This document shows positions 3,839 to 19,791 of a DNA stretch of 21,465 bases, piece after piece. The position numbers were made by a program, and so were the translations under genes. The notes under the pieces are model-generated. The model saw only the letters and a program-made list of their open reading frames with translations. It did not search any database and was not told the origin of the DNA. Positions within the stretch are counted from its first letter, which is position 1; each line of letters starts with the position of its first letter. Source of the DNA: a virus; the IMG/VR virus record IMGVR_UViG_3300025138_000446, positions 1 to 21,465 of that record. The stretch is one strand, 5' to 3'.

Positions 3839-6265
3839 ATGGCTGGGTCAGTTATAAAAAATTATTTTCCTTCTCAAGTTGTTAGTGATATTGAGAAAGT
3901 GTCAATGGAGTATGGTATGAAAGTAGCTAAAGCTATTGAGTACGAATGGTTCGAAGACAGGTTTTCACATAGTAATAGGTATTTAAACAATAGGGTAGAA
4001 TTTCACAAGCTTAGGCTATACGCAAGAGGCGAGCAGCCAATACAAAAATACAAAGATGAGTTGTCTATAAACGGTGACTTGTCATACTTAAACTTAGACT
4101 GGAAGCCAGTTCCAATTATATCTAAATTTGTTGATATAGTTGTAAATGGTATGTCTAATAGGGCTTACGAAATAAAGGCTTACTCTCAAGATCCGTATGG
4201 AATGAGCAAGAGGACAGCTTACATGGAAGGAATACTAGCTGATATGGACACTAAGGATCTAGCTCAATACGCTAGCGCTAAGTTTAAAGTCAATGTTTTT
4301 GATAATCCACCTGAGCAACTACCTTCGTCTATTGAAGAGCTTCAACTACACATGCAACTGTCTTACAAGCAGGCTGTAGAGATAGCACAAGAGCAGGCTC
4401 TTGACGTGTTGATGGAAGGTAATAGATATGAATTAATCAAAAAAAGATTTTTCTACGATTTAACGGTAATAGGAATAGGTGCTGTTAAAACTGGGTTTAA
4501 CACTTCAGAAGGTGTAACAATAGAATATGTTGATCCATCAAACTTAGTTTACTCCTACACTGACGATCCTTACTTTGAAGACTTATACTACATAGGTGAA
4601 GTGAAAAATATACCCGTTAACGAGCTTGTTAGAGAGTTTCCAAACTTAACGCAAGGCGAGCTTGAAGAGATAGTTCAAGAGTACAACAGTTACACCGGTA
4701 ATACTAAATACGGATATAACACAGGTAAGAAAACAGATAATAATAAGGTTCAGGTTTTGTACTTCAACTACAAGACTTTTATGAACAACACCTACAAGGT
4801 TAAAGAAACTGCAACTGGAGCGCAGAAAGCTATAAAGAAAGATGACTTATTTAATCCTCCTAAAGACAAGCAAGAGAATTTTACAAAACTTCAAAAGCAA
4901 GTTGAGGTTTTATATGAAGGTGCTTTAGTTCTAGGATCAAACAAGATGCTTAAGTGGGGCATGGCTAAGAATATGACTAGGCCAAAAAGTGACTACAACA
5001 AAGTTAAGATGAACTATCACATCGTGGCACCTAGGATGTACAACGGAAGTATAGACTCTTTAGTAAAACGTATAACAGGTTTTGCTGATATGATTCAACT
5101 TACACATTTAAAACTACAACAAGTAATGTCTAGACTAGTTCCTGATGGAGTTTATTTAGATGCTGATGGTTTGGCTGAGATAGATTTAGGTAATGGAACC
5201 AACTACAATCCACAAGAAGCTTTAAACATGTATTTCCAGACAGGTTCTGTTATTGGTAGATCTTTAAACGAAAACGGAGAGTTTAATCCTGGCAAAAACC
5301 CAATACAAGAAATACAGTCTGGTTCTGGTGGACAAAAAATGCAAAGCCTAATAGGTACATATAACTACTACCTACAGATGATAAGGGATGTAACCGGCTT
5401 AAATGAAGCTCGTGATGGTAGTATGCCAGCTGAGAGATCTTTAGTTGGTATTCAAAAAATGGCAGCTGCAAATAGTAATACAGCTACTAGACACATTTTG
5501 CAAGCAGGATTATTTTTAACTTCCGAGGTAGCTGGAGCTTTGACACTTAGAATATCTGATATACTAGAATACTCTCCGACTAAAGATGCCTTTACACAAG
5601 CAATAGGAGCGCACAATGTCGGAACACTAGAAGATATATCTGATATGTATCTTTATGACTTTGGTATATTTCTAGAGCTTTCTCCTGATGAAGAAGAAAA
5701 GCAGTTACTAGAAAACAACATACAGCAAGCGTTGCAGCAACAATTGATAGAGCTTTCAGACGCAATTGATCTTAGAGAAATTAAAAACATAAAGCTAGCT
5801 AATCAATTGCTGAAGATTAGAAGACAAAAGAAGTTAATGCAAGATCAAAAGATGCAGCAAGAAAACGCGGCTGCACAAGCTAAAGCTCAAGGTGAAGCAC
5901 AGCAGGCTGCTGCTCAAGCTGAGGCTCAAAAGAATCAAGCTATTACGCAATCTCAAATAGCCCTTGAAGAAGCTAAGGAAAACTTCAAAAGAGAAACCAT
6001 GATGCATGAGGCTAATGTTAAGAAGCAGCTAATGGATCACGAGTTTCAGATCAACATGCAGTTAAAGCAGATGGAAGTAACGGGGAAAAAGCAAGCTGAG
6101 ACTGGAAAAGAAGATCGTAAAGACGAAAGAACAAAGATACAAGCCTCACAACAAAGTGAGCTTATAGACCAAAGAAAAACCGGTGGACCACCTAAAAAGT
6201 TCGAATCTGCCGGTAATGATATACTCGGAGGTGGATTCGGTATGGAAACATTTAACCCGAGGTAA
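3839..6265 (+). CDS. Portal protein
   Basis: This 808-residue protein is the probable portal, the dodecameric ring at the capsid vertex through which DNA enters and leaves. The N-terminal part has FHKLRLYARGEQPIQKYK (about residues 55-72) and DWKPVPIISKFVDIVVNGM (87-105), a pattern typical of crAss-like and related portals. The middle contains GLNEARDGSMPAERSLVG, and then a long helical region. From about residue 615 to 765 it is extremely Gln/Ala/Lys-rich and probably a long coiled coil, the barrel-like extension found in large portals. The tail ends in a Gly-rich ILGGGFGMETFNPR. Size and place, between large terminase and the scaffold/capsid genes, both support the call. The ATG lies two bases after the terminase stop in an AAATAAATATGG context with no Shine-Dalgarno sequence. 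Confidence 0.92.
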   Translation: MAGSVIKNYFPSQVVSDIEKVSMEYGMKVAKAIEYEWFEDRFSHSNRYLNNRVEFHKLRLYARGEQPIQKYKDELSINGDLSYLNLDWKPVPIISKFVDIVVNGMSNRAYEIKAYSQDPYGMSKRTAYMEGILADMDTKDLAQYASAKFKVNVFDNPPEQLPSSIEELQLHMQLSYKQAVEIAQEQALDVLMEGNRYELIKKRFFYDLTVIGIGAVKTGFNTSEGVTIEYVDPSNLVYSYTDDPYFEDLYYIGEVKNIPVNELVREFPNLTQGELEEIVQEYNSYTGNTKYGYNTGKKTDNNKVQVLYFNYKTFMNNTYKVKETATGAQKAIKKDDLFNPPKDKQENFTKLQKQVEVLYEGALVLGSNKMLKWGMAKNMTRPKSDYNKVKMNYHIVAPRMYNGSIDSLVKRITGFADMIQLTHLKLQQVMSRLVPDGVYLDADGLAEIDLGNGTNYNPQEALNMYFQTGSVIGRSLNENGEFNPGKNPIQEIQSGSGGQKMQSLIGTYNYYLQMIRDVTGLNEARDGSMPAERSLVGIQKMAAANSNTATRHILQAGLFLTSEVAGALTLRISDILEYSPTKDAFTQAIGAHNVGTLEDISDMYLYDFGIFLELSPDEEEKQLLENNIQQALQQQLIELSDAIDLREIKNIKLANQLLKIRRQKKLMQDQKMQQENAAAQAKAQGEAQQAAAQAEAQKNQAITQSQIALEEAKENFKRETMMHEANVKKQLMDHEFQINMQLKQMEVTGKKQAETGKEDRKDERTKIQASQQSELIDQRKTGGPPKKFESAGNDILGGGFGMETFNPR

Positions 6266-8995: not shown

Positions 8996-9823
8996 ATGGC
9001 TAAAAAGCAAACAACAAAGGTTGAAGTAGAACAACCACAAACAAAAGCTACAAATGAAATGGTTGAGGTGGTTATTGAAAAACCACAACCTAAAAAACCC
9101 GATTGGGAAATAAAAGATAGAATGTACTATCTTAAAAACAATAAAAAGCCTTTGTCAAAAATGGTTAAGTCAGCAGGCATTTTCTGGTTTGACGAAGAAA
9201 AAGGTTTTGAAAGAGAGTTGAAGTATTGTAAGAATCAACAAACTTCTTTTGTTGATGAAATGAAAGGTGATCAAAGGCTTTCTCACATTATATTTAGAGC
9301 AGGAAGTTTATTCGTGCCTAAAGAAGAAACGGTTTTACAAAAACTACTATCATTATACCATCCTCATAGAGAAAATATATTCTACGAGCACAAACCAATT
9401 AAAGTTGCTGAAAATCAACTAGACTGGTTAGAATTTGAAGTTGAGGCAATGGTAATAGCTAGAGGAATGGACGTTGATATGGCTGAGGCTATTATGAGAG
9501 TAGAGATAGGATCTGAAGTTACTAAGATGAGTTCTAAAGAGCTTAGAAGAGATTTGTTACTATTTGCTAAGAAAAACCCTAAGTTATTCCTAGAGTTGAC
9601 TACAGATGACAATGTAATGCTAAGGAACTTTGGTATTAAAGCTGTAGAAGCTAGAATAATTAAATTATCAGGAGATCAACGTAATTTCATGTGGTCTTCA
9701 AACGATAGAAAAATTATGACAGTACCGTTTGACGAACACCCATACTCTGCTTTAGCCGCTTGGTTTAAAACAGATGAAGGAATGGAGATATACTCCAACA
9801 TAGAAAAGCGCTTAAACGCGTAA
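8996..9823 (+). CDS. Conserved phage virion or head-completion protein
   Basis: This 275-residue protein has a basic, Lys/Gln/Pro-rich N-terminus (1-35) and then a mixed alpha/beta body. Recognisable stretches include DWEIKDRMYYLKNNKKPLS (36-54), SFVDEMKGDQRLSHIIFRAG (84-103), KELRRDLLLFAKKNPKLFLE (181-200) and TVPFDEHPYSALAAWFKTDE (242-261). No catalytic motif, signal peptide or membrane segment is visible. I recall similar proteins directly downstream of the major capsid gene in uncultured marine phages, without a proven role. The position between capsid and connector genes suggests a head-completion, capsid-auxiliary or assembly protein. It lies just after the capsid terminator, so it may depend on readthrough. 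The ATG at 8996 follows an A/T-rich leader and no other start is competitive. Confidence 0.75.
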   Translation: MAKKQTTKVEVEQPQTKATNEMVEVVIEKPQPKKPDWEIKDRMYYLKNNKKPLSKMVKSAGIFWFDEEKGFERELKYCKNQQTSFVDEMKGDQRLSHIIFRAGSLFVPKEETVLQKLLSLYHPHRENIFYEHKPIKVAENQLDWLEFEVEAMVIARGMDVDMAEAIMRVEIGSEVTKMSSKELRRDLLLFAKKNPKLFLELTTDDNVMLRNFGIKAVEARIIKLSGDQRNFMWSSNDRKIMTVPFDEHPYSALAAWFKTDEGMEIYSNIEKRLNA

Positions 9824-11534: not shown

Positions 11535-14500
11535 ATGCCAGAGTTAAAAAGAAATTTTATGCAAGGTCGAATGAACAAAGACCTTGATGAAAGAATAATA
11601 CCGGACGGAGAGTATAGAGATGCTTTGAACGTAGAGGTTTCTACTTCAGAAGAATCTTCAGTTGGAGCGGTTAAAAATATACCAGGCAACGAATTAATTG
11701 GTTCTATTAGGCTTAGCGATAGATGGTGGAAAGGTAATTCTTCGGCTGAAGGCGATATTCAAGGGCCATGGAAATACAGCCAAGCGATAAACGGTAGTGA
11801 TTTTTCTACGATAGCAGAAACAGTAGGAGCTGTAACCGATCCAGCCACTGACAAAATATATTCTTTTGTGTCTAGTGTAATAGAACCGTACTATGTTCAA
11901 GCGGCATCTGGAACATCGTTCACACCTACAGAATACACTAAAACTAGCGTTGGCTCTTCAACACAGTCAAAAGAAGTTGTGGTTAACAATGTTGATAACC
12001 TTGCTGTTGGCATGATTGTAAAAGGTACTGGTGTAGAATTTGGTACAATAATATCTTCGATTTCATCGCTTGGTGATCCAGTAGTGCACACTATAACGCT
12101 TAGCAAACTAAACACAATAGGCGCAGGTGTCAGCTTAGTTTTTTCTGTAGCAGCCTTAGTAGGATGTGATGTAGATTGTGTAATGCAAATTGAGCCTAAC
12201 TCTTTTGTGGCAACTGAGCAAAGCACGGATACGCTAGCTGTTATGAATGATGTATACAATGTATATAGAATACCTAGAAGTCCAATAACTTTATTTAACG
12301 ATGAATTTGAAGGCAGAAATACTACCGCCGCTAACAAAGAAGACAAAACCGTAATATTCATTTCTGAAAGCACAGGGGGAAACAATCCAAGCTCTGATGC
12401 AATAGTGCCTGGTGTTAATACGGGCCAAATGAATTGGGGAAACGGGTTGGCTAAAGGATCTGAAGTTGAGATATACTTTGGTGGCATTAACGTTCTTACT
12501 CCAGACGTAATAAACGCGTTTACAAACAAGCCAATAGGAAAAGTTAAGGTTTCAAGCGTTGAGTTTAGCAAGGTGTATGACACAAACAACCCGACTATTA
12601 CTGTTACACTAAATAAAGCCATACCAGCAGACATAGTTACACAAGCAAAGATTGAGGGTGGATTATATTTTAAGTTTAAAAACGAAAGATTATTAAACTT
12701 TGAAAATGGAGTTAAGCTAAATTACACTGAAGCTAACGTCGAGGGTAACACGCTTATTGAAAATCATCCAACCCCTATAAATACTAAAATATCAGGCATA
12801 GATATTGTTGATAGTGTTATATATTTTACCGATGGTAAGACAGAGCCTAAAAGAATTGATATTAAAAAAGGGATAGAGGCTTCTAATTTTGCTACAAATT
12901 ATTCATCTGTTTTAAACTTTGGTGTAGAGCCTAATTATAGCCCTCTTTTGTTTGAAACTTCTCAAATAGTATACGAAGATCCTATAAGTCAGTATTTTGG
13001 AAGTCATCCAAGCTCGCCTAACTACAACTACGGTAATGGGCAGAATAGAAAAAAAGCAAAAAAATACGAACTAGAAGATATAACTGTAATACGAAGACAT
13101 CCTTTAAATCCTCCAGTAATAGACTTGAAGCGATCTAGCAGAGTAGGAATAACACATGAAGTTGGTTTGTTAGCTGGAACGCCAATAAGCAGCTCTACTA
13201 CTATGGGTCAGTCAATAGTATTTACTGTCACAAAAAATAAAAAAAGAGATTACGCGTTTCCTTCTTTTTATCCAGACGCAAGCACCTTAGATAATCACGA
13301 TAATACTAGAAATCACTCTTGGAGAGTAAACGATGTGCTTGTTTTAGATTCTTTATTCGGCTACTCTCCATCAGTAGCAAATCCACTAGGAGACGACAAC
13401 GGCTCGTTCAGCGACAGTGGATCTAGGATGCTTAAAGTTAAGATAACAGCCATATCATCTTCTGGTAGTTTTAGCCAACCTGGAGGTTCATCACCTCTTA
13501 CAGATTATCACGGTACCGATGGAGCGCTTATAAAAAGCAACCAAAGAGATTCTGAAATAGGTCTATACAATTTTGGCAATAGTTCTCAAAACTTATCTTC
13601 GCCAACCTACACTAAGTACGACGAAATACTTACTATTACGGCTGAAGTTGTTGATAAAAACGAAGCTTTGTCTAGAACTAATTTAAGTGCTACCGGAATT
13701 AAGTATTGGGAAGCTTCTTTAGAACCAGAAACTGCGGGTCTGTTTGAGGAAAAGTTTCCTAGATTTGCTATTAGATACAAATTTGACGACGGACAATACT
13801 CTGCTTTAAGTCCTTTTTCAGAACCTTGTTTTCTTCCTAAGACAACGTACAGATGGAATAAAGAAGATGGGCAAAACCTTGCTATGGTTAACGATGTTAG
13901 GCAAATAGTGCTTAGAGATTTTATTTCACCAAGCACGCCTGTAGACGTTAAGCAAATAGATGTACTTGTTAAGTTTGATGGCGAGAACAGTATATACAAA
14001 GTTGAATCTATAAAAAAAGGTAGCAGAGAGTGGAACAACGACAACGGTAAGTATGCTAAAACTATTCTAGGCCCAAGATCTTTAGTAACCAGTGGTACAG
14101 TTGCGTTCAACATGAACAACAGCAAAACACAAGCAAATAAATACGAATCTAAATCTTATGGTAGAACTAGAGGGCTTTTTGAAGTGAAAACAGAGAAAAT
14201 AGGTTCTGTAATATCTTCTAATCAAATCCTAAGACCGTTTGATGCTGTGCCAAGAAAAGCAAAAGCTCAGTGCATATCAGCTAATAGGTTGATATACGGA
14301 AACTACACTTTAGATTACGACTTAGTAACAAAAGAAGGTAAAGCTGTTGTTCCAAAATTTTTCTACGACTACAAAGAGCCTACTAACAAGTGGTACGGCT
14401 CTTTCAAAGAAACTACTGTTGATAATTTCCGCAACAATAGGATGTATGGAAGTCCAGCTAGGTCAATAAAAAGCGATAGAACATACACGCTTGGAGTTTC

Positions 14501-17054
14501 TTTTTTAGATAGGTTTGGAAGACAGTCACCGGTAATAACTGGTCCAAACAGCTCTTGTGTTTCTGTTCCTACTAGCGGTAGATTTCCCAATAGATTAAAC
14601 GTATTGATGGATTCTTCTAGCGGTATACCTTACTGGGCTACACACTTTAGGTACTACATGAAGGAAACTTCTAATGAGTATTACAATCTAGCTTTGTTTA
14701 GGGCTTATCCAGCTGAAGGCAATGGCGATGGAGAAGAAAATAGAACGACTAGCTATTGGTTAGCGTTTCACTCTTCAGACAGGAACAAAGTTCAAGAAGG
14801 TTCTACCCTTAGAATTAAAGAGAGAGGAGGTCAAGGTGCAGCGGGTGGTGAACAAGTTTCAAGGACATATACCATTACCGCTATATCCAACGAAGCTCCT
14901 AAGGAAGACGAGCTGGCCGATACTGTAACAATTGCTCCATCTAGACGAAAAGGCAAGTTTTACGCTAAGATAAAGGCTGACGCAACGTTTGTAAATACTT
15001 TAAAAGGAGGGTTTGGTGCAAATGATAAGTTTGGAGGAATACTATCTGACTATCATGATCCAGCTATTTTTGAGACGATACCTGATCCAGACATTGGATT
15101 AAACATTTTCTATGAAGTGCCTAGAACATATCCTATTGAGCTTACCGACAGTAATATACACGACTTAATAAACTTCGACGATTTTATAGCTTGTAACAGA
15201 TCTGGCTACGACGCGGATGGAGCAGACAAATCAGCTCCTACTTTTAGAGCGGCAGACAGCAATGGAACTCTTCATTCAAACGGAGGAGATCTTAATAATG
15301 GTACAGGTGCATTTCCTAACGAGCTATTCCATTTACACGATGGAAAACTAAACAGATATTGGGGTGATCTAAACACTAGAATTGTAGCGGTTAGAGGCGC
15401 ATCTGTTGAAGGAGGTATACAAAAAATACAACTAGATGCGATTAGAAACTTTGGTTTACCTGTTTTGCCAAATCCAATTGATCCTTCGCAAGCTTATATA
15501 GCGGGATCTACAGTAGGAATATCAACCGCTCTTATAGCCGACTCTGGTGGTACTGGGCCTTATACCGGCAACTACAATGTAGCTGGAGAATTTGCTACAG
15601 TAAGTCATTTAGGGCTTTTTGGAACTTTGTCTATAGTAAGACACGACGGAACTAGATCTGTATTAAATATTAACAATGTTAATGACGATGTACCTCTAAG
15701 TGGCAATATAGGCATGGGTTACCCGTCTCAAAATGATATTACTAGTGTATTTAACAACAATCAAAGCTATACAGCCACAAACACTGTTGAGTTAACTTCT
15801 AACATATTCTCAGCAACGCATGTTCTTCCTTTCCATAACTGTTGGTCGTTCAGCAATGGAGTTGAGTCAGACAGAATTAGAGATGACTTTAACACGCCTA
15901 GACTAGACAACGGAGTAAAAGCTTCTTCAACAGCAGAGACTTACGGCGAAAAAGAGTATAAACATGGTTTAATATTTTCTGGTATTTACAACGCTAAGAC
16001 AGACGTTAATAACTTAAACCAATTTATAAAAGCGATAGGAATAGTAAAAGATCTAAATCCAGAGTACGGTAGTATACAAAAACTCTTTACTAGAGATACT
16101 AACGTATTAGCTTTTTGTGAGAACAAGGTTTTAAAAATATTATCTAACAAAGACGCATTATTTAACGCAGATGGTAATACTAATGTAACTTCAAATAAAG
16201 CTGTTTTAGGTTCTGCTGTGCCTTTTCTAGGCGATCATGGTATATCTAGGAATGCAGAGTCTTTTGCAGAAGACGAGTTTAGATGCTATTTTGTAGATAG
16301 AGACAGAGGAGCAGTTTGCAGGTTGTCAAGAGATGGCATAACAGCAATATCCTCTATAGGTATGTCTGATTATTTTTCAGATGAACTTAGAAGTGCGGTT
16401 GCTTGTGTTGGATCTTTTAATAAAAACAAAGGAGAGTACGAGCTGACTATACATAACAACCTAGGTGTTGATGACGTTGATAATGATGCTACTACTGATA
16501 TTACAAAGCGCGTTCAAACTATTTCGTTTAACGAAAAAACTAATTCTTGGGTAAGTTTTAGATCCTATGCTATCGAACAAGGAGTTTCTATGAACAATCA
16601 GTACTTTACTTTAAAAAAAGGTAGGGTTTGGCTTCACTCAGATGATGCTACTGATGGTAGAAACAATTTCTACGGAACTCAATACTTCTCAAGCATAACA
16701 CCAATATTCAACGATGCTCCAGGATCTGTAAAAAGTTTTCAAACAATAAACTATGAAGGTACTCAGGCTCAAGTTATAGCTAATAGTAGAACAGCAACTA
16801 CAGCTGGATCGACTACTACTACCACTCTAAGTATTACGGGAAGCAAAGAAGGTCTTACCGTTGGTCAAGTTGTAACTAGCAACGATTTTACTCACGCAAA
16901 CCAAGGTAATCCAAAAGCAGACAGGCCAACAGTAACGGCTATATCTGAAAATGGTCAAGTATTAACGCTGAGCTCTGCTGTAACAATTGGAGCAGGTAAA
17001 ACAGTTGTGTTTTCAGACGCTGAGTACTACAATGATGATGCTTATACTGGCTGA
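11535..17054 (+). CDS. Giant tail stabilisation protein, main part, ending at an in-frame TGA
   Basis: As read with the standard code this is 1839 residues. The N-terminus MPELKRNFMQGRMNKDLDER followed by a GEYRDALNVEVSTSEES segment (about 27-43) is a signature I recall from phage stabilisation/tail proteins of crAss-like and marine phages, comparable in role to the P22 tail accessory factor or the crAss muzzle. The body is a long series of beta-rich segments without membrane regions or a signal peptide. Two similar small beta modules are inserted near residues 135-205 and 1751-1831 (both ending in an IGAG...VFS pattern). Near the end are FQTINYEGTQAQV and YYNDDAYTG, and then TGA at 17052. 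The frame stays open beyond the stop to 19421, so the true product is probably 2628 residues if the stop is decoded or is an error; see the next two entries. It lies three bases after the adaptor gene. Confidence 0.85.
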   Translation: MPELKRNFMQGRMNKDLDERIIPDGEYRDALNVEVSTSEESSVGAVKNIPGNELIGSIRLSDRWWKGNSSAEGDIQGPWKYSQAINGSDFSTIAETVGAVTDPATDKIYSFVSSVIEPYYVQAASGTSFTPTEYTKTSVGSSTQSKEVVVNNVDNLAVGMIVKGTGVEFGTIISSISSLGDPVVHTITLSKLNTIGAGVSLVFSVAALVGCDVDCVMQIEPNSFVATEQSTDTLAVMNDVYNVYRIPRSPITLFNDEFEGRNTTAANKEDKTVIFISESTGGNNPSSDAIVPGVNTGQMNWGNGLAKGSEVEIYFGGINVLTPDVINAFTNKPIGKVKVSSVEFSKVYDTNNPTITVTLNKAIPADIVTQAKIEGGLYFKFKNERLLNFENGVKLNYTEANVEGNTLIENHPTPINTKISGIDIVDSVIYFTDGKTEPKRIDIKKGIEASNFATNYSSVLNFGVEPNYSPLLFETSQIVYEDPISQYFGSHPSSPNYNYGNGQNRKKAKKYELEDITVIRRHPLNPPVIDLKRSSRVGITHEVGLLAGTPISSSTTMGQSIVFTVTKNKKRDYAFPSFYPDASTLDNHDNTRNHSWRVNDVLVLDSLFGYSPSVANPLGDDNGSFSDSGSRMLKVKITAISSSGSFSQPGGSSPLTDYHGTDGALIKSNQRDSEIGLYNFGNSSQNLSSPTYTKYDEILTITAEVVDKNEALSRTNLSATGIKYWEASLEPETAGLFEEKFPRFAIRYKFDDGQYSALSPFSEPCFLPKTTYRWNKEDGQNLAMVNDVRQIVLRDFISPSTPVDVKQIDVLVKFDGENSIYKVESIKKGSREWNNDNGKYAKTILGPRSLVTSGTVAFNMNNSKTQANKYESKSYGRTRGLFEVKTEKIGSVISSNQILRPFDAVPRKAKAQCISANRLIYGNYTLDYDLVTKEGKAVVPKFFYDYKEPTNKWYGSFKETTVDNFRNNRMYGSPARSIKSDRTYTLGVSFLDRFGRQSPVITGPNSSCVSVPTSGRFPNRLNVLMDSSSGIPYWATHFRYYMKETSNEYYNLALFRAYPAEGNGDGEENRTTSYWLAFHSSDRNKVQEGSTLRIKERGGQGAAGGEQVSRTYTITAISNEAPKEDELADTVTIAPSRRKGKFYAKIKADATFVNTLKGGFGANDKFGGILSDYHDPAIFETIPDPDIGLNIFYEVPRTYPIELTDSNIHDLINFDDFIACNRSGYDADGADKSAPTFRAADSNGTLHSNGGDLNNGTGAFPNELFHLHDGKLNRYWGDLNTRIVAVRGASVEGGIQKIQLDAIRNFGLPVLPNPIDPSQAYIAGSTVGISTALIADSGGTGPYTGNYNVAGEFATVSHLGLFGTLSIVRHDGTRSVLNINNVNDDVPLSGNIGMGYPSQNDITSVFNNNQSYTATNTVELTSNIFSATHVLPFHNCWSFSNGVESDRIRDDFNTPRLDNGVKASSTAETYGEKEYKHGLIFSGIYNAKTDVNNLNQFIKAIGIVKDLNPEYGSIQKLFTRDTNVLAFCENKVLKILSNKDALFNADGNTNVTSNKAVLGSAVPFLGDHGISRNAESFAEDEFRCYFVDRDRGAVCRLSRDGITAISSIGMSDYFSDELRSAVACVGSFNKNKGEYELTIHNNLGVDDVDNDATTDITKRVQTISFNEKTNSWVSFRSYAIEQGVSMNNQYFTLKKGRVWLHSDDATDGRNNFYGTQYFSSITPIFNDAPGSVKSFQTINYEGTQAQVIANSRTATTAGSTTTTTLSITGSKEGLTVGQVVTSNDFTHANQGNPKADRPTVTAISENGQVLTLSSAVTIGAGKTVVFSDAEYYNDDAYTG
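17052..17054 (+). other. In-frame TGA at a probable tryptophan position
   Basis: This TGA lies in frame (codon 1840) of a frame that is otherwise open from 11535 to 19421. Flanking residues read DDAYTG before it and YVESINTDQQEGK after it, followed by KEGKWFNYISG. In related tail proteins I remember a G-W-Y pattern at this place, so a TGG to TGA change is the simplest reading. The tryptophan codons elsewhere in this gene are TGG. Possible explanations are stop-to-tryptophan recoding, partial readthrough, a genuine nonsense mutation, or a base-call error. No frameshift is needed. Confidence 0.8.
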
Positions 17055-19421
17055 TATGTTGAGTCTATAAACACAGACCAACAAGAGGGTAAGGTTCTTG
17101 AATTTAAAAACAAAGAAGGCAAATGGTTTAATTACATATCGGGTGTAGCAACTACTTTCTCTACTGATAGAGGCGGTGGTGGCAGCACAGGAAACGTAGA
17201 CGCTCAAGAGTTTTCTGTACAAGGAATAGGTCACTTTCATGGCATATCTGGAGCTGGTAACAGTGGTCTTTTTTACTCTTCTACCGTAACAGCAACAATA
17301 ACAAATACTTGCGGTGTATCTGCAACTATAACAGGTAATACAGAGTCAAACATACCTTTTGGCACAAATTTTGGTACGTACACTGAGTTTGACCATGCTA
17401 CAGGCAAACAAAGAGTTACTATATGCCCGCCGACTGGGTACTCCTTTGTGTCACCGGATAATATAACAAACACATCGGTAGCAGTTGACAGCGTAACCTT
17501 AAACAGCACGACAACTCAAGCCAACAACATTGCCAATACTTTTACTACTACTGTAAATCAAACAAACGTAGTAAACGGCTGTATAACTGTTGATGTTAAT
17601 TGGCACGATGGCTACACTCCTAATGCAAATACAACATTAAGTATTGCTATTGCAGCTAGCTCAACAGGTGGCGAAATACAACTCTACAACTATCTAGCTG
17701 TAGCAAACTACGACCTAGCTTGGGAACAAAGCAGCTCTAACGAGTGGTCTTTAAACCAACCTATTGCTATAGACCCTAATCTAAACGCTAGTAGCCTGCA
17801 ATTAGGCGGATCTATCTTCAATGCAAACTTTGTAGACCTTGTTGTATCACCAAGTGAAAATGATGCGCTTAGCATATTGTCTGGAACTATTGATCCAACA
17901 ACCACTAGTCAAAGCTTTTCTTTTGAGTATGTAGCAGAAGGCAACACTTTTTTCAACGCGCCAACTACGCCTGGAGAGCAGGCTACAATTCGCAAGTTTA
18001 TTATACCTAAAGAAGTTGTTGGCTTTGGAGGAAACACTACAACGGTAGCAACAATTCCAGATGGATTTTACACATCTCCAGGTGCCAGCAACACAGCACA
18101 AGTAGGTAATGCAACTTACCCTGGACTTGTAGAAATTTATTGGGAGTTTACTGAATACAACTCTGTTGGGTTGGCCACGAAGCTAAAAGTTTACTGCAAG
18201 ATAAATCACACAGATTCTGGATATGTAGACAATCAAACTTACGGGTGCAACACTCCTACTAACGAAGCTAACTATGTTGATAGCTTTCCTTTATTACTTT
18301 GGATGCCTGCGCAAGACATAGGTGGTGGAGACGCGCCTGACGAGCCTAACGAGCCTACTGACATTCCTGGAGATATCTTTGACGATCCAAATCCTCCTTT
18401 AGTATTCAAAAACCAGGTAATAGTAGTACATCAAGACGCTGATGGCTCTCCTAGCACTGGGGTTTCAGTTCAAGTTGCTGAATTTGAAACAACTCAATTT
18501 GAAAATCTAAACCAATCAGTGGCGTCATGCTTTATGTCGGCTAATGCTGGGTTTTCTTTTGCAGAAGCAAATATAACTGTTGTAGATGGAAACAACGATA
18601 ATGCTCCGTCTGGCGGAGAAGCTAGCTACGTAGACGGTGTGGGAGGAGATACTTTAACAGCAAAAATACAATCAATAGTTTGTAAAGACATTGTTGTTGA
18701 CGGAGTTACCTTAGTTCAAGTTGACTTTACTTTTGAGAGTCTCATTATAACTTCTTCTAACGAAATTACTATAATAATAAAAGGAGATGCGGTAAATTTA
18801 GCCGCTGCTGAAGTTTCTCACGTTGTTAGAATAAGTAGTGTTGGGAGATTAGCTCATGGAGAAGACATAGACCAACGTATTTTTGGTAATGGATCTAGTG
18901 GAGCGCTAGCACTCACAGCGGCTCCAGATGGAAATTACACCGCAAGTGCTGACACACAAACCGGAGACGTTAAAACTTATTTACACGGATCACAAGTTAC
19001 TGGAACAAGCTCTAACGGAGTAGAAAGAACCGTTGCAACTGTTACATACAAAACAGTATCTGGGTCTAGATTTGTATCGGTTACACCAGACAATAACGGT
19101 AACAAGAAATTCTTACACTTATGCGGAGCGAGCTACAATGCTGGTACAGATAATGAAAAGATTTTAGCTTGGCTAAACGCTGAGCTTGATAACAACTTCT
19201 TTATAAGTTCTCAAAACAACTTAAATCAGTCTTACCATATATCTTTCGCTGTTAGTTCTTCTGGTTCTACGGGCGCAGGCAACATACAAGAGACAATAGT
19301 AGCAACAATAAAATTCACGGGTACAGGAGTTGCAGACGTTGCTACCACTATGCTTTTTCCAGGCGGACAAGATGGTAACGTTATATCCGCAACCCCTCAC
19401 GATAATCAATACTTTTTATAA
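17055..19421 (+). CDS. Continuation of the giant tail protein beyond the TGA (distal adhesin-like part)
   Basis: These 788 codons continue the frame of the upstream gene. There is no in-frame ATG between 17055 and about 18300; the first alternative start is a GTG at 17448, in mid-domain, so independent translation is unlikely. The first part (YVESINTDQQEGK, KEGKWFNYISG, DAQEFSVQGIG) looks like the real end of the stabilisation-protein domain. Beyond it come Thr/Asn/Val-rich beta domains typical of phage surface or adhesin regions (for example SSTVTATITNTCGV and NTFTTTVNQTNVVNGC). An acidic Pro-rich linker (PDEPNEPTDIPGDIFDDP, about 18340-18390) divides it from a second beta-rich domain starting VFKNQVIVVHQDADG. 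It was probably added by fusion and may bind the host surface. If the TGA is a real stop, this part is a decaying remnant; codon use does not look degraded. Confidence 0.7.
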   Translation, partial: YVESINTDQQEGKVLEFKNKEGKWFNYISGVATTFSTDRGGGGSTGNVDAQEFSVQGIGHFHGISGAGNSGLFYSSTVTATITNTCGVSATITGNTESNIPFGTNFGTYTEFDHATGKQRVTICPPTGYSFVSPDNITNTSVAVDSVTLNSTTTQANNIANTFTTTVNQTNVVNGCITVDVNWHDGYTPNANTTLSIAIAASSTGGEIQLYNYLAVANYDLAWEQSSSNEWSLNQPIAIDPNLNASSLQLGGSIFNANFVDLVVSPSENDALSILSGTIDPTTTSQSFSFEYVAEGNTFFNAPTTPGEQATIRKFIIPKEVVGFGGNTTTVATIPDGFYTSPGASNTAQVGNATYPGLVEIYWEFTEYNSVGLATKLKVYCKINHTDSGYVDNQTYGCNTPTNEANYVDSFPLLLWMPAQDIGGGDAPDEPNEPTDIPGDIFDDPNPPLVFKNQVIVVHQDADGSPSTGVSVQVAEFETTQFENLNQSVASCFMSANAGFSFAEANITVVDGNNDNAPSGGEASYVDGVGGDTLTAKIQSIVCKDIVVDGVTLVQVDFTFESLIITSSNEITIIIKGDAVNLAAAEVSHVVRISSVGRLAHGEDIDQRIFGNGSSGALALTAAPDGNYTASADTQTGDVKTYLHGSQVTGTSSNGVERTVATVTYKTVSGSRFVSVTPDNNGNKKFLHLCGASYNAGTDNEKILAWLNAELDNNFFISSQNNLNQSYHISFAVSSSGSTGAGNIQETIVATIKFTGTGVADVATTMLFPGGQDGNVISATPHDNQYFL

Positions 19422-19422
19422 T

Positions 19423-19791
19423 ATGCCAATAGTAACACTAACATTCACACATAGCATTAATAGATCAGCGCAAGTAGGTGACATAATATATTATACACCA
19501 ACAACTTCTCAAGGTGGTAGCGAGCAAGCTAGCTCAGACTATCAAGGTATGAGTAAGATGGGTGCTGTAACGGCTATAACTAGAACTTCAACAGGTGGAA
19601 CTATACTTGTAGATCATAGTACTGATATTCCGGCTCCTACTACTTCTGACTTTTTGTTTTTCAGTAAAGACAACGCTACAAACTTAGCTTCTCTAATTGG
19701 TTATTACGCTGAAGTGAAGTTTGTAAACAAATCTAACAAGAAGATAGAGATGTTTCAAGTAGGCGCTGATATGTTTGAGAGCAGTAAATAG
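19423..19791 (+). CDS. Small phage virion-associated protein of unknown function
   Basis: This 122-residue protein is started at the ATG at 19423 (MPIVTLTFTHSINRSAQVGD), one base after the upstream stop; an earlier start at 19330 would lie inside the tail gene and is rejected. It is beta-rich: RSAQVGDIIYYTPTT near 14-28, MGAVTAITRTSTGGTILVD near 47-65, DFLFFSKDNATNLASLIGYY near 75-94, and AEVKFVNKSNKKIEMFQV near the end. No catalytic motif is visible. I recall this pattern from short proteins that follow the tail-stabilisation gene in uncultured marine phages, and the tight spacing supports a shared transcript and a structural role. The gene ends with TAG, one of the three such stops in the window. 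Confidence 0.72.
   Translation: MPIVTLTFTHSINRSAQVGDIIYYTPTTSQGGSEQASSDYQGMSKMGAVTAITRTSTGGTILVDHSTDIPAPTTSDFLFFSKDNATNLASLIGYYAEVKFVNKSNKKIEMFQVGADMFESSK

Follow-up and report, generated by a model that had tools for sequence, protein, structure and literature searches.

The muzzle (tail stabilisation) protein of the crass-related phage analysed here probably carries, in a slot between its conserved core and a small end domain, an accessory module that would bind the host surface, and the lone TGA that interrupts its gene is probably an accident. The proposed module is a 729-residue extension that starts right after the end of the core (EFSVQGIG), and the end domain that follows it would once have been the last part of the muzzle, as it still is in four flavobacterial phages, and is encoded here by a separate gene of 122 aa. 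Fusion to the muzzle would provide each tail with six copies of the module, presumably exposed near the barrel-muzzle joint, where they may contact the host surface and aid attachment or the triggering of the gate. The host-range determinants of crass-related phages outside the gut are poorly known, and a fixed site in a highly conserved tail gene that takes up several unrelated module families would be a place to seek receptor-binding parts and to compare them with hosts.

The window, which means the whole stretch of DNA analysed, is a complete virus record of 21,465 bases, and the record itself is probably a genome fragment. Its gene set is that of a crass-related podovirus, with terminase, portal and virion structural proteins followed by a long gene at 11535-19421 (Table 1), the frame of which contains a single stop, the TGA at codon 1840, before the final TAA at 19419-19421. 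The protein that bears the extension is a crassvirus-type muzzle: it matches PF25731 with 39.0 bits and PF25729 with 34.6 bits, both above the curated cut-off of 27, and phrog_14478 with an E value of 4e-105. The last propeller blades of its predicted structure align to residues 1115-1241 of the phicrAss001 muzzle gp44 (chain 7qol_P) with a Z score of 10.1 and an rmsd of 3.1 over 116 aligned residues, in a model of the C-terminal core that is weak as a whole (pLDDT 56) and usable in its propeller part alone. In this structural alignment 7qol_P ranks second, beside SU10, and generic propellers score 8.6 and below, and hhalign of the muzzle to gp44 residues 1055-1279 gives 93.9%. Foldseek by itself found no match at E <= 0.001 for the model of the C-terminal core fragment, and sequence searches of solved structures with the muzzle, the extension and A1 as queries returned nothing useful. 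As in gp44 (PMC10172136), there are an N-terminal and a C-terminal Pfam domain, the propeller precedes the C-terminal domain, and the gene stands directly after the tail-tube/ring gene. In the search with the muzzle protein, Maribacter phage Panino and the Cellulophaga phages from the Calle/phi38:1 group (Callevirus) rank best among named phages, at roughly 30% identity across roughly one quarter of the query. The phage is termed crass-related, and membership of the order Crassvirales is not claimed, because NCBI gives Pervagoviridae, the family of the Cellulophaga Calle/phi38:1 phages, without an order. On the minus strand, antisense to the muzzle gene, there is also an open frame of 245 codons (11897-12634), which is probably due to chance.

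Table 1. Positions of the muzzle gene, its parts and the following gene in the window
Feature	Position	Strand	Remarks
Crassvirus-type muzzle (tail stabilisation) gene	11535..19421	+	2628 codons, one in-frame TGA; PF25731, PF25729, phrog_14478
Muzzle C-terminal domain PF25729	16659..17144	+	Residues 1709-1761 matched directly; the part up to about residue 1870 assigned on the basis of relatives; an insert of some 70 residues splits the domain
In-frame TGA, codon 1840	17052..17054	+	At a conserved tryptophan
Remaining conserved muzzle core 3' of the TGA	17055..17231	+	YVESI...EFKNKEGKWFN...EFSVQGIG
C-terminal extension (slot module), 729 residues	17232..19418	+	Clear relatives in L002, L003 and L004 only
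Acidic Pro-rich linker in the extension	18339..18392	+	DEPNEPTDIPGDIFDDPN, residues 2269-2286
End-domain gene, 122 aa, conserved	19423..19791	+	Homologous to the muzzle C-terminal domain of four cultured flavobacterial phages

The point at which the canonical muzzle ends can be located precisely. An earlier note, made from the sequence of the window, had placed the end of the conserved domain at about 17230, and the conserved block indeed terminates in EFSVQGIG, with residue 1899 at 17229-17231. An alignment of 48 C-terminal regions shows the block G-W...FK.KEGKW...QG with little or no variation. The phicrAss001 protein stops 38 residues past the Pfam C-terminal domain, which sets it apart from the window muzzle, and in L030, a relative with a short muzzle, this distance is 42 residues. 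The 729 residues beyond residue 1899 are thus outside the canonical muzzle.

The description of this region as more than 700 residues rich in Thr, Asn and Val, divided by an acidic Pro-rich linker near 18340-18390, holds in both respects. Residues 1899-2628 contain 11.4% Thr, 8.5% Val and 9.0% Asn, as compared with 8.1%, 7.2% and 8.1% in residues 1-1898, and Lys and Arg together fall from 9.6% to 3.2%; the linker is found at the expected place. The extension aligns to the corresponding region in L002 and L004 with 38% identity over 787 columns (E 8e-151), and in the comparison of residues 1841-2628 with L002, where synonymous sites are near saturation, pN (0.39) is lower than pS (0.68). The 788 open codons, the homology to L002 and L004 and the excess of pS over pN indicate that the extension is more than a product of chance. 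Identity to L002 is 40-43% in the module, 82-84% in the adjoining conserved core and 53-61% in the middle of the muzzle, and L002-L003, a pair with less saturation, gives an omega of 0.19 for the module and 0.04 for the adjoining core. Mid-muzzle omega is 0.21-0.23, and the halves of the module have values of 0.23 and 0.46; since the mid-muzzle is also only 53-61% identical, fast change is not particular to the module. The extension has no match in Pfam, PHROG or PDB, including no Pfam or PHROG match to an Ig-like domain, and it has no internal repeats. The beta domains that the earlier note had seen in it are putative at best, as its AlphaFold model, built from four sequences, has a mean pLDDT of 34. 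Used by itself as a query, the extension brought up no relative, a scan with its alignment found L002-L004 only, and none of 582 pattern matches in a scan of genome contigs was related. Furthermore, its family has no link to other module families beyond a built-in overlap of 11 residues.

Comparison with related loci reveals that the extension fills a slot that is occupied in every relative in which it can be read. Among the 63 relatives that could be read at the conserved tryptophan of the C-terminal domain, 56 have a closed muzzle frame, and past the tryptophan the protein runs on for 68-94 residues in 26 of them and for 245-1479 residues in the other 30. The comparison of homologue lengths that the earlier note had suggested thus separates the extension from the core domains, and the claim that it was added to a tail protein finds support: its place is past the canonical end, and both its family and its length differ among the relatives. 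A profile of the end-domain gene, made from the window and 22 further records (most of them among those later counted), identified this gene downstream of the muzzle in 48 of the 56 closed records, and in the remaining eight the record ends too soon or there is no end-gene match. None of the 48 has an empty slot between the core and the end gene: the module is fused to the muzzle in 16, is a separate gene in 22 and occurs in both forms in 10. Locus counts include near-copies unless stated; without near-copies (n = 35) the slot is fused in 13, separate in 13 and both in 9, with 544-1656 residues in total. Separate slot genes begin between -9 and +30 bases from the muzzle stop, and in the window, where the slot is of the fused kind, the next ATG stands two bases past the muzzle stop. 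It counts against an added extension that every readable slot holds a module, as would be expected of an essential core domain, and in its favour that the sequences in the slot differ.

One module family exists both fused and separate. In L026 the module is fused, and it matches genes that stand apart from the muzzle in L022 (E 1e-42) and L009 (E 3e-73); the profile of the fused family aligns to a profile of four separate genes at 100% over 552 columns, and the fused and separate profiles of this family reach the large separate family L014/L030 at 94-97%. In L009 the break falls within the module, which leaves 207 residues on the muzzle and 484 in the following gene. The family of the window module was not found as a separate gene among the relatives. 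The fused extensions form eight groups without BLAST links, and six changes of the short state are required on the core tree, at least five of them forced by well-supported branches.

The other border of the slot is the end-domain gene, which encodes 107-136 aa in 41 of the 48 relatives, 183 aa in one and 286-395 aa in six. Its counterpart is the C-terminal part of the muzzle itself in Panino, elemo, phi38:1 and Gundel, four of the seven named muzzles tested (E 9e-16 to 2e-6 with a set of 10 sequences), and in these four the end domain comes right after the core with no large module in between. In Cellulophaga phage phi13:2 (L074, 5432-10999) and in ctfjg026 (L071, 7001-13021) it resides in a separate gene of 241-267 aa, phrog_18548, which apparently holds the muzzle C-terminal domain as well. 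The first part of phrog_18548 also matches residues 1661-1765 of the window muzzle, and L052 shows a clean break at about the same point. With the break at the junction and this earlier one in phi13:2, ctfjg026 and L052, the muzzle gene has therefore been opened at two places in the wider group. The muzzle and the end gene of ctfjg026 are separated by a gene that bears the annotation putative glycosidase and has no Pfam or PHROG match. In L052 the split at 15399-15429 yields genes of 1906 aa and 195 aa and precedes the C-terminal domain, and the first of the two products ends in a Thr/Pro/Ser-rich tail.

A wider reading can be put forward tentatively, with the balance somewhat against it, according to which the end of the muzzle is a dedicated cassette site for a required and freely exchangeable host-recognition module, fission and fusion switch the module between the free and the fused form, and folding tolerates breaks at two junctions. 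If this were true, fused modules would be fixed at six copies per tail and free-standing ones could be dosed independently, and parts of the domain that joins the tail could be supplied by a separate chain.

Evidence on what the modules may do comes from the domains found in the slots of relatives. The Ig/cadherin-like domain Big_9 is above the Pfam cut-off at the end of the phi13:2 muzzle (73.9 against 23.6) and in three of the seven separate slot genes scanned (L030 47.7, L057 41.3, L058 24.0). Of the 37 fused extensions, only two contain a Pfam domain above cut-off, an LRR in L065 (39.5 against 27) and a Hint domain in L053, and none contains an Ig domain above cut-off, so the case for an adhesin function rests on the other slot families. 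Lectin-like Pfam matches in L012, L013, L024 and L054 are weak, lie below cut-off and were not used. The receptor-binding, adhesin-like character that had been proposed for the extension is thus echoed by Ig/cadherin-like or LRR domains in some slot modules of relatives, but not by the window module, which has no match. An exposed binding role is our best guess, somewhat better than even. In L053 the Hint/Vint match covers residues 882-1002, close to the end of the extension (46.1 bits, cut-off 27), and perhaps relates to self-processing.

Known systems offer partial parallels. One is phi13:2 gp120/gp121, in which an Ig/cadherin-like module ends the muzzle gene and the end-domain gene follows, but there the break precedes the muzzle C-terminal domain, apparently a part of gp121 (phrog_18548). 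The crAss-BACON tandem repeats and the Ig-like adhesins of gut phages are further examples of modular Ig-like domains within or close to crass-like tail genes; unlike the module discussed here, these are not described as muzzle-fused in the accessible text of the two reports (PMC6949934, PMC13370021), and the window module, for its part, has no Ig match. According to the portion of Bayfield et al. available (PMC10172136), length variation of crassvirus muzzles is located in the crass and IG2 insertions, and a review, as far as its text could be accessed, assigns a docking role to the crass and Ig domains (PMC10136315). No report of a C-terminal muzzle module slot was found in the accessible parts of the open-licence literature.

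A possible position of the module is suggested by the nozzle proteins T7 gp12 and SU10 gp17, which resemble the muzzle in that, in the passages available, the chain past the propeller forms a platform joining the tail tube, and which differ in that those published descriptions mention no such C-terminal extension. By analogy with this platform, the extension may leave the protein near the muzzle-barrel joint, and if muzzles of the gp44 type resemble T7 and SU10, the module may sit there and not at the tip, so that it is doubtful whether the term distal, in the sense of the tail tip, suits the extension. The same comparison lends something to an alternative in which the slot module is a structural part, such as a fibre dock, a hub or another tail element, and not a receptor binder: in T7 the fibre dock and platform come after the propeller (PMC6702177, from the part of the text available), and all 48 readable relatives have a module. 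However, several module families have no detectable similarity to each other and differ widely in length, and some slot modules contain Ig/cadherin, LRR or Hint domains, which makes a purely structural role unlikely, if still the most serious competitor to host-surface binding.

The TGA calls for a separate explanation. It lies 59 residues before the junction of core and extension, inside the conserved C-terminal domain, and since the nearly full-length Pfam matches of L007 and L030 extend past the conserved tryptophan, it would remove the end of the core domain together with the extension. The codon at this tryptophan is TGG in 63 of the 67 related loci and no other codon was read; in the remaining four the tryptophan falls in an alignment gap (L025) or the alignment falls short of it (L005, L018, L027). 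The counts are 57 TGG and this one TGA in 12 window genes, and 2698 TGG and one TGA in the aligned genes of relatives, where the TGA is located in the disrupted start of L060. Past the TGA, 788 codons are free of stops and the conserved block is intact. No near-identical record spanning the TGA was found with a 26-base pattern, in scans that may omit such records, and L027, which is 99.99% identical to the window over 10,479 bases, ends at window base 12013, before the TGA. The codon most likely arose either as a single G-to-A mistake in sequencing or assembly or as a nonsense variant of low frequency, and a lone stop codon in a metagenome contig should not be equated with regulation.

The earlier note had proposed that the TGA governs expression of the extension and hence the share of tails that carry it, which the data do not bear out: the stop interrupts the conserved domain itself, none of the readable relatives has it, no restart lies nearby and a search of the partial contigs yielded no suppressor tRNA. 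A programmed or suppressed stop, read as Trp by a suppressor tRNA or through leaky decoding so that a fraction of the muzzles is extended, would fit the residue expected at codon 1840 and the rarity of TGA stops in the clade, and the recoding idea was reasonable because TGA recoded to Trp, mainly in late genes, has been published for crass-like phages (PMC7886860, in the text available). Among 702 ORFs of at least 120 aa in the 67 related loci, near-copies included, TGA is the stop in seven and TAA in 632, and none of 14 window genes ends in TGA when the muzzle is taken to its TAA, which fits recoding and fits a strong TAA bias equally well. Four of the seven TGA-ending ORFs are antisense, and the other three, each in a relative, are genes that end within ATGA overlaps with the next gene, which argues against reassignment. 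Reassignment to Trp would lead one to expect frequent TGA in several conserved genes, which is not seen, and the TGG and TGA counts do not support recoding here. No tRNA, suppressors included, was found in the window or in the 60 of 67 relative loci scanned, all partial contigs, and the RNA fold around the TGA is ordinary (z -0.75). Because 59 core residues would be lost along with the extension, the short product would not equal a normal short muzzle. Programmed or suppressed reading is thus very improbable.

Further routes by which the TGA might act were considered and rejected. Selenocysteine insertion or a stimulatory hairpin finds no footing in the unremarkable fold, and a restart past the TGA does not lead back to the core since the first in-frame ATG, GTG or TTG is a GTG at 17448, 393 bases on and too far in, from which a free module may at most be translated. 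A stop at the module junction is also discounted, as the muzzle stops observed in relatives are at least 10 residues past QGIG, or ahead of the C-terminal domain (in L052 and apparently also in phi13:2 and ctfjg026), and not at the tryptophan. For relatives with a split arrangement, conserved readthrough across the junction does not fit the mixed frames of the separate genes, which are in the muzzle frame in 7 of 13 non-redundant separate-only records, near kin among them.

Should the TGA be real and not be decoded as Trp, both the end of the conserved C-terminal domain and the extension would be missing from the muzzle, and the codon could be a true nonsense allele of the phage population, the sign of a muzzle that is defective or in decay. 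Other records of the set do show single nonsense codons and changes of frame: in a conserved gene of L042 there is a lone TAG at 4214, for which two records of 99.8% identity have TTG and which also serves as a yardstick for accidents, and the muzzle frame is not open from its start to the tryptophan in 4 of 63 relatives, owing to frame changes in L024 and L043, a clean gene split in L052 and a start that does not align in L060. The muzzle is expected to be essential, and the open frame and conserved block past the TGA show no sign of decay, so a defective allele is improbable, less so than programmed reading. A further irregular muzzle is that of Panino (L070), whose annotation divides it near 9262, close to a short run of T, into two genes that are not in the same frame, either through an error or a frameshift.
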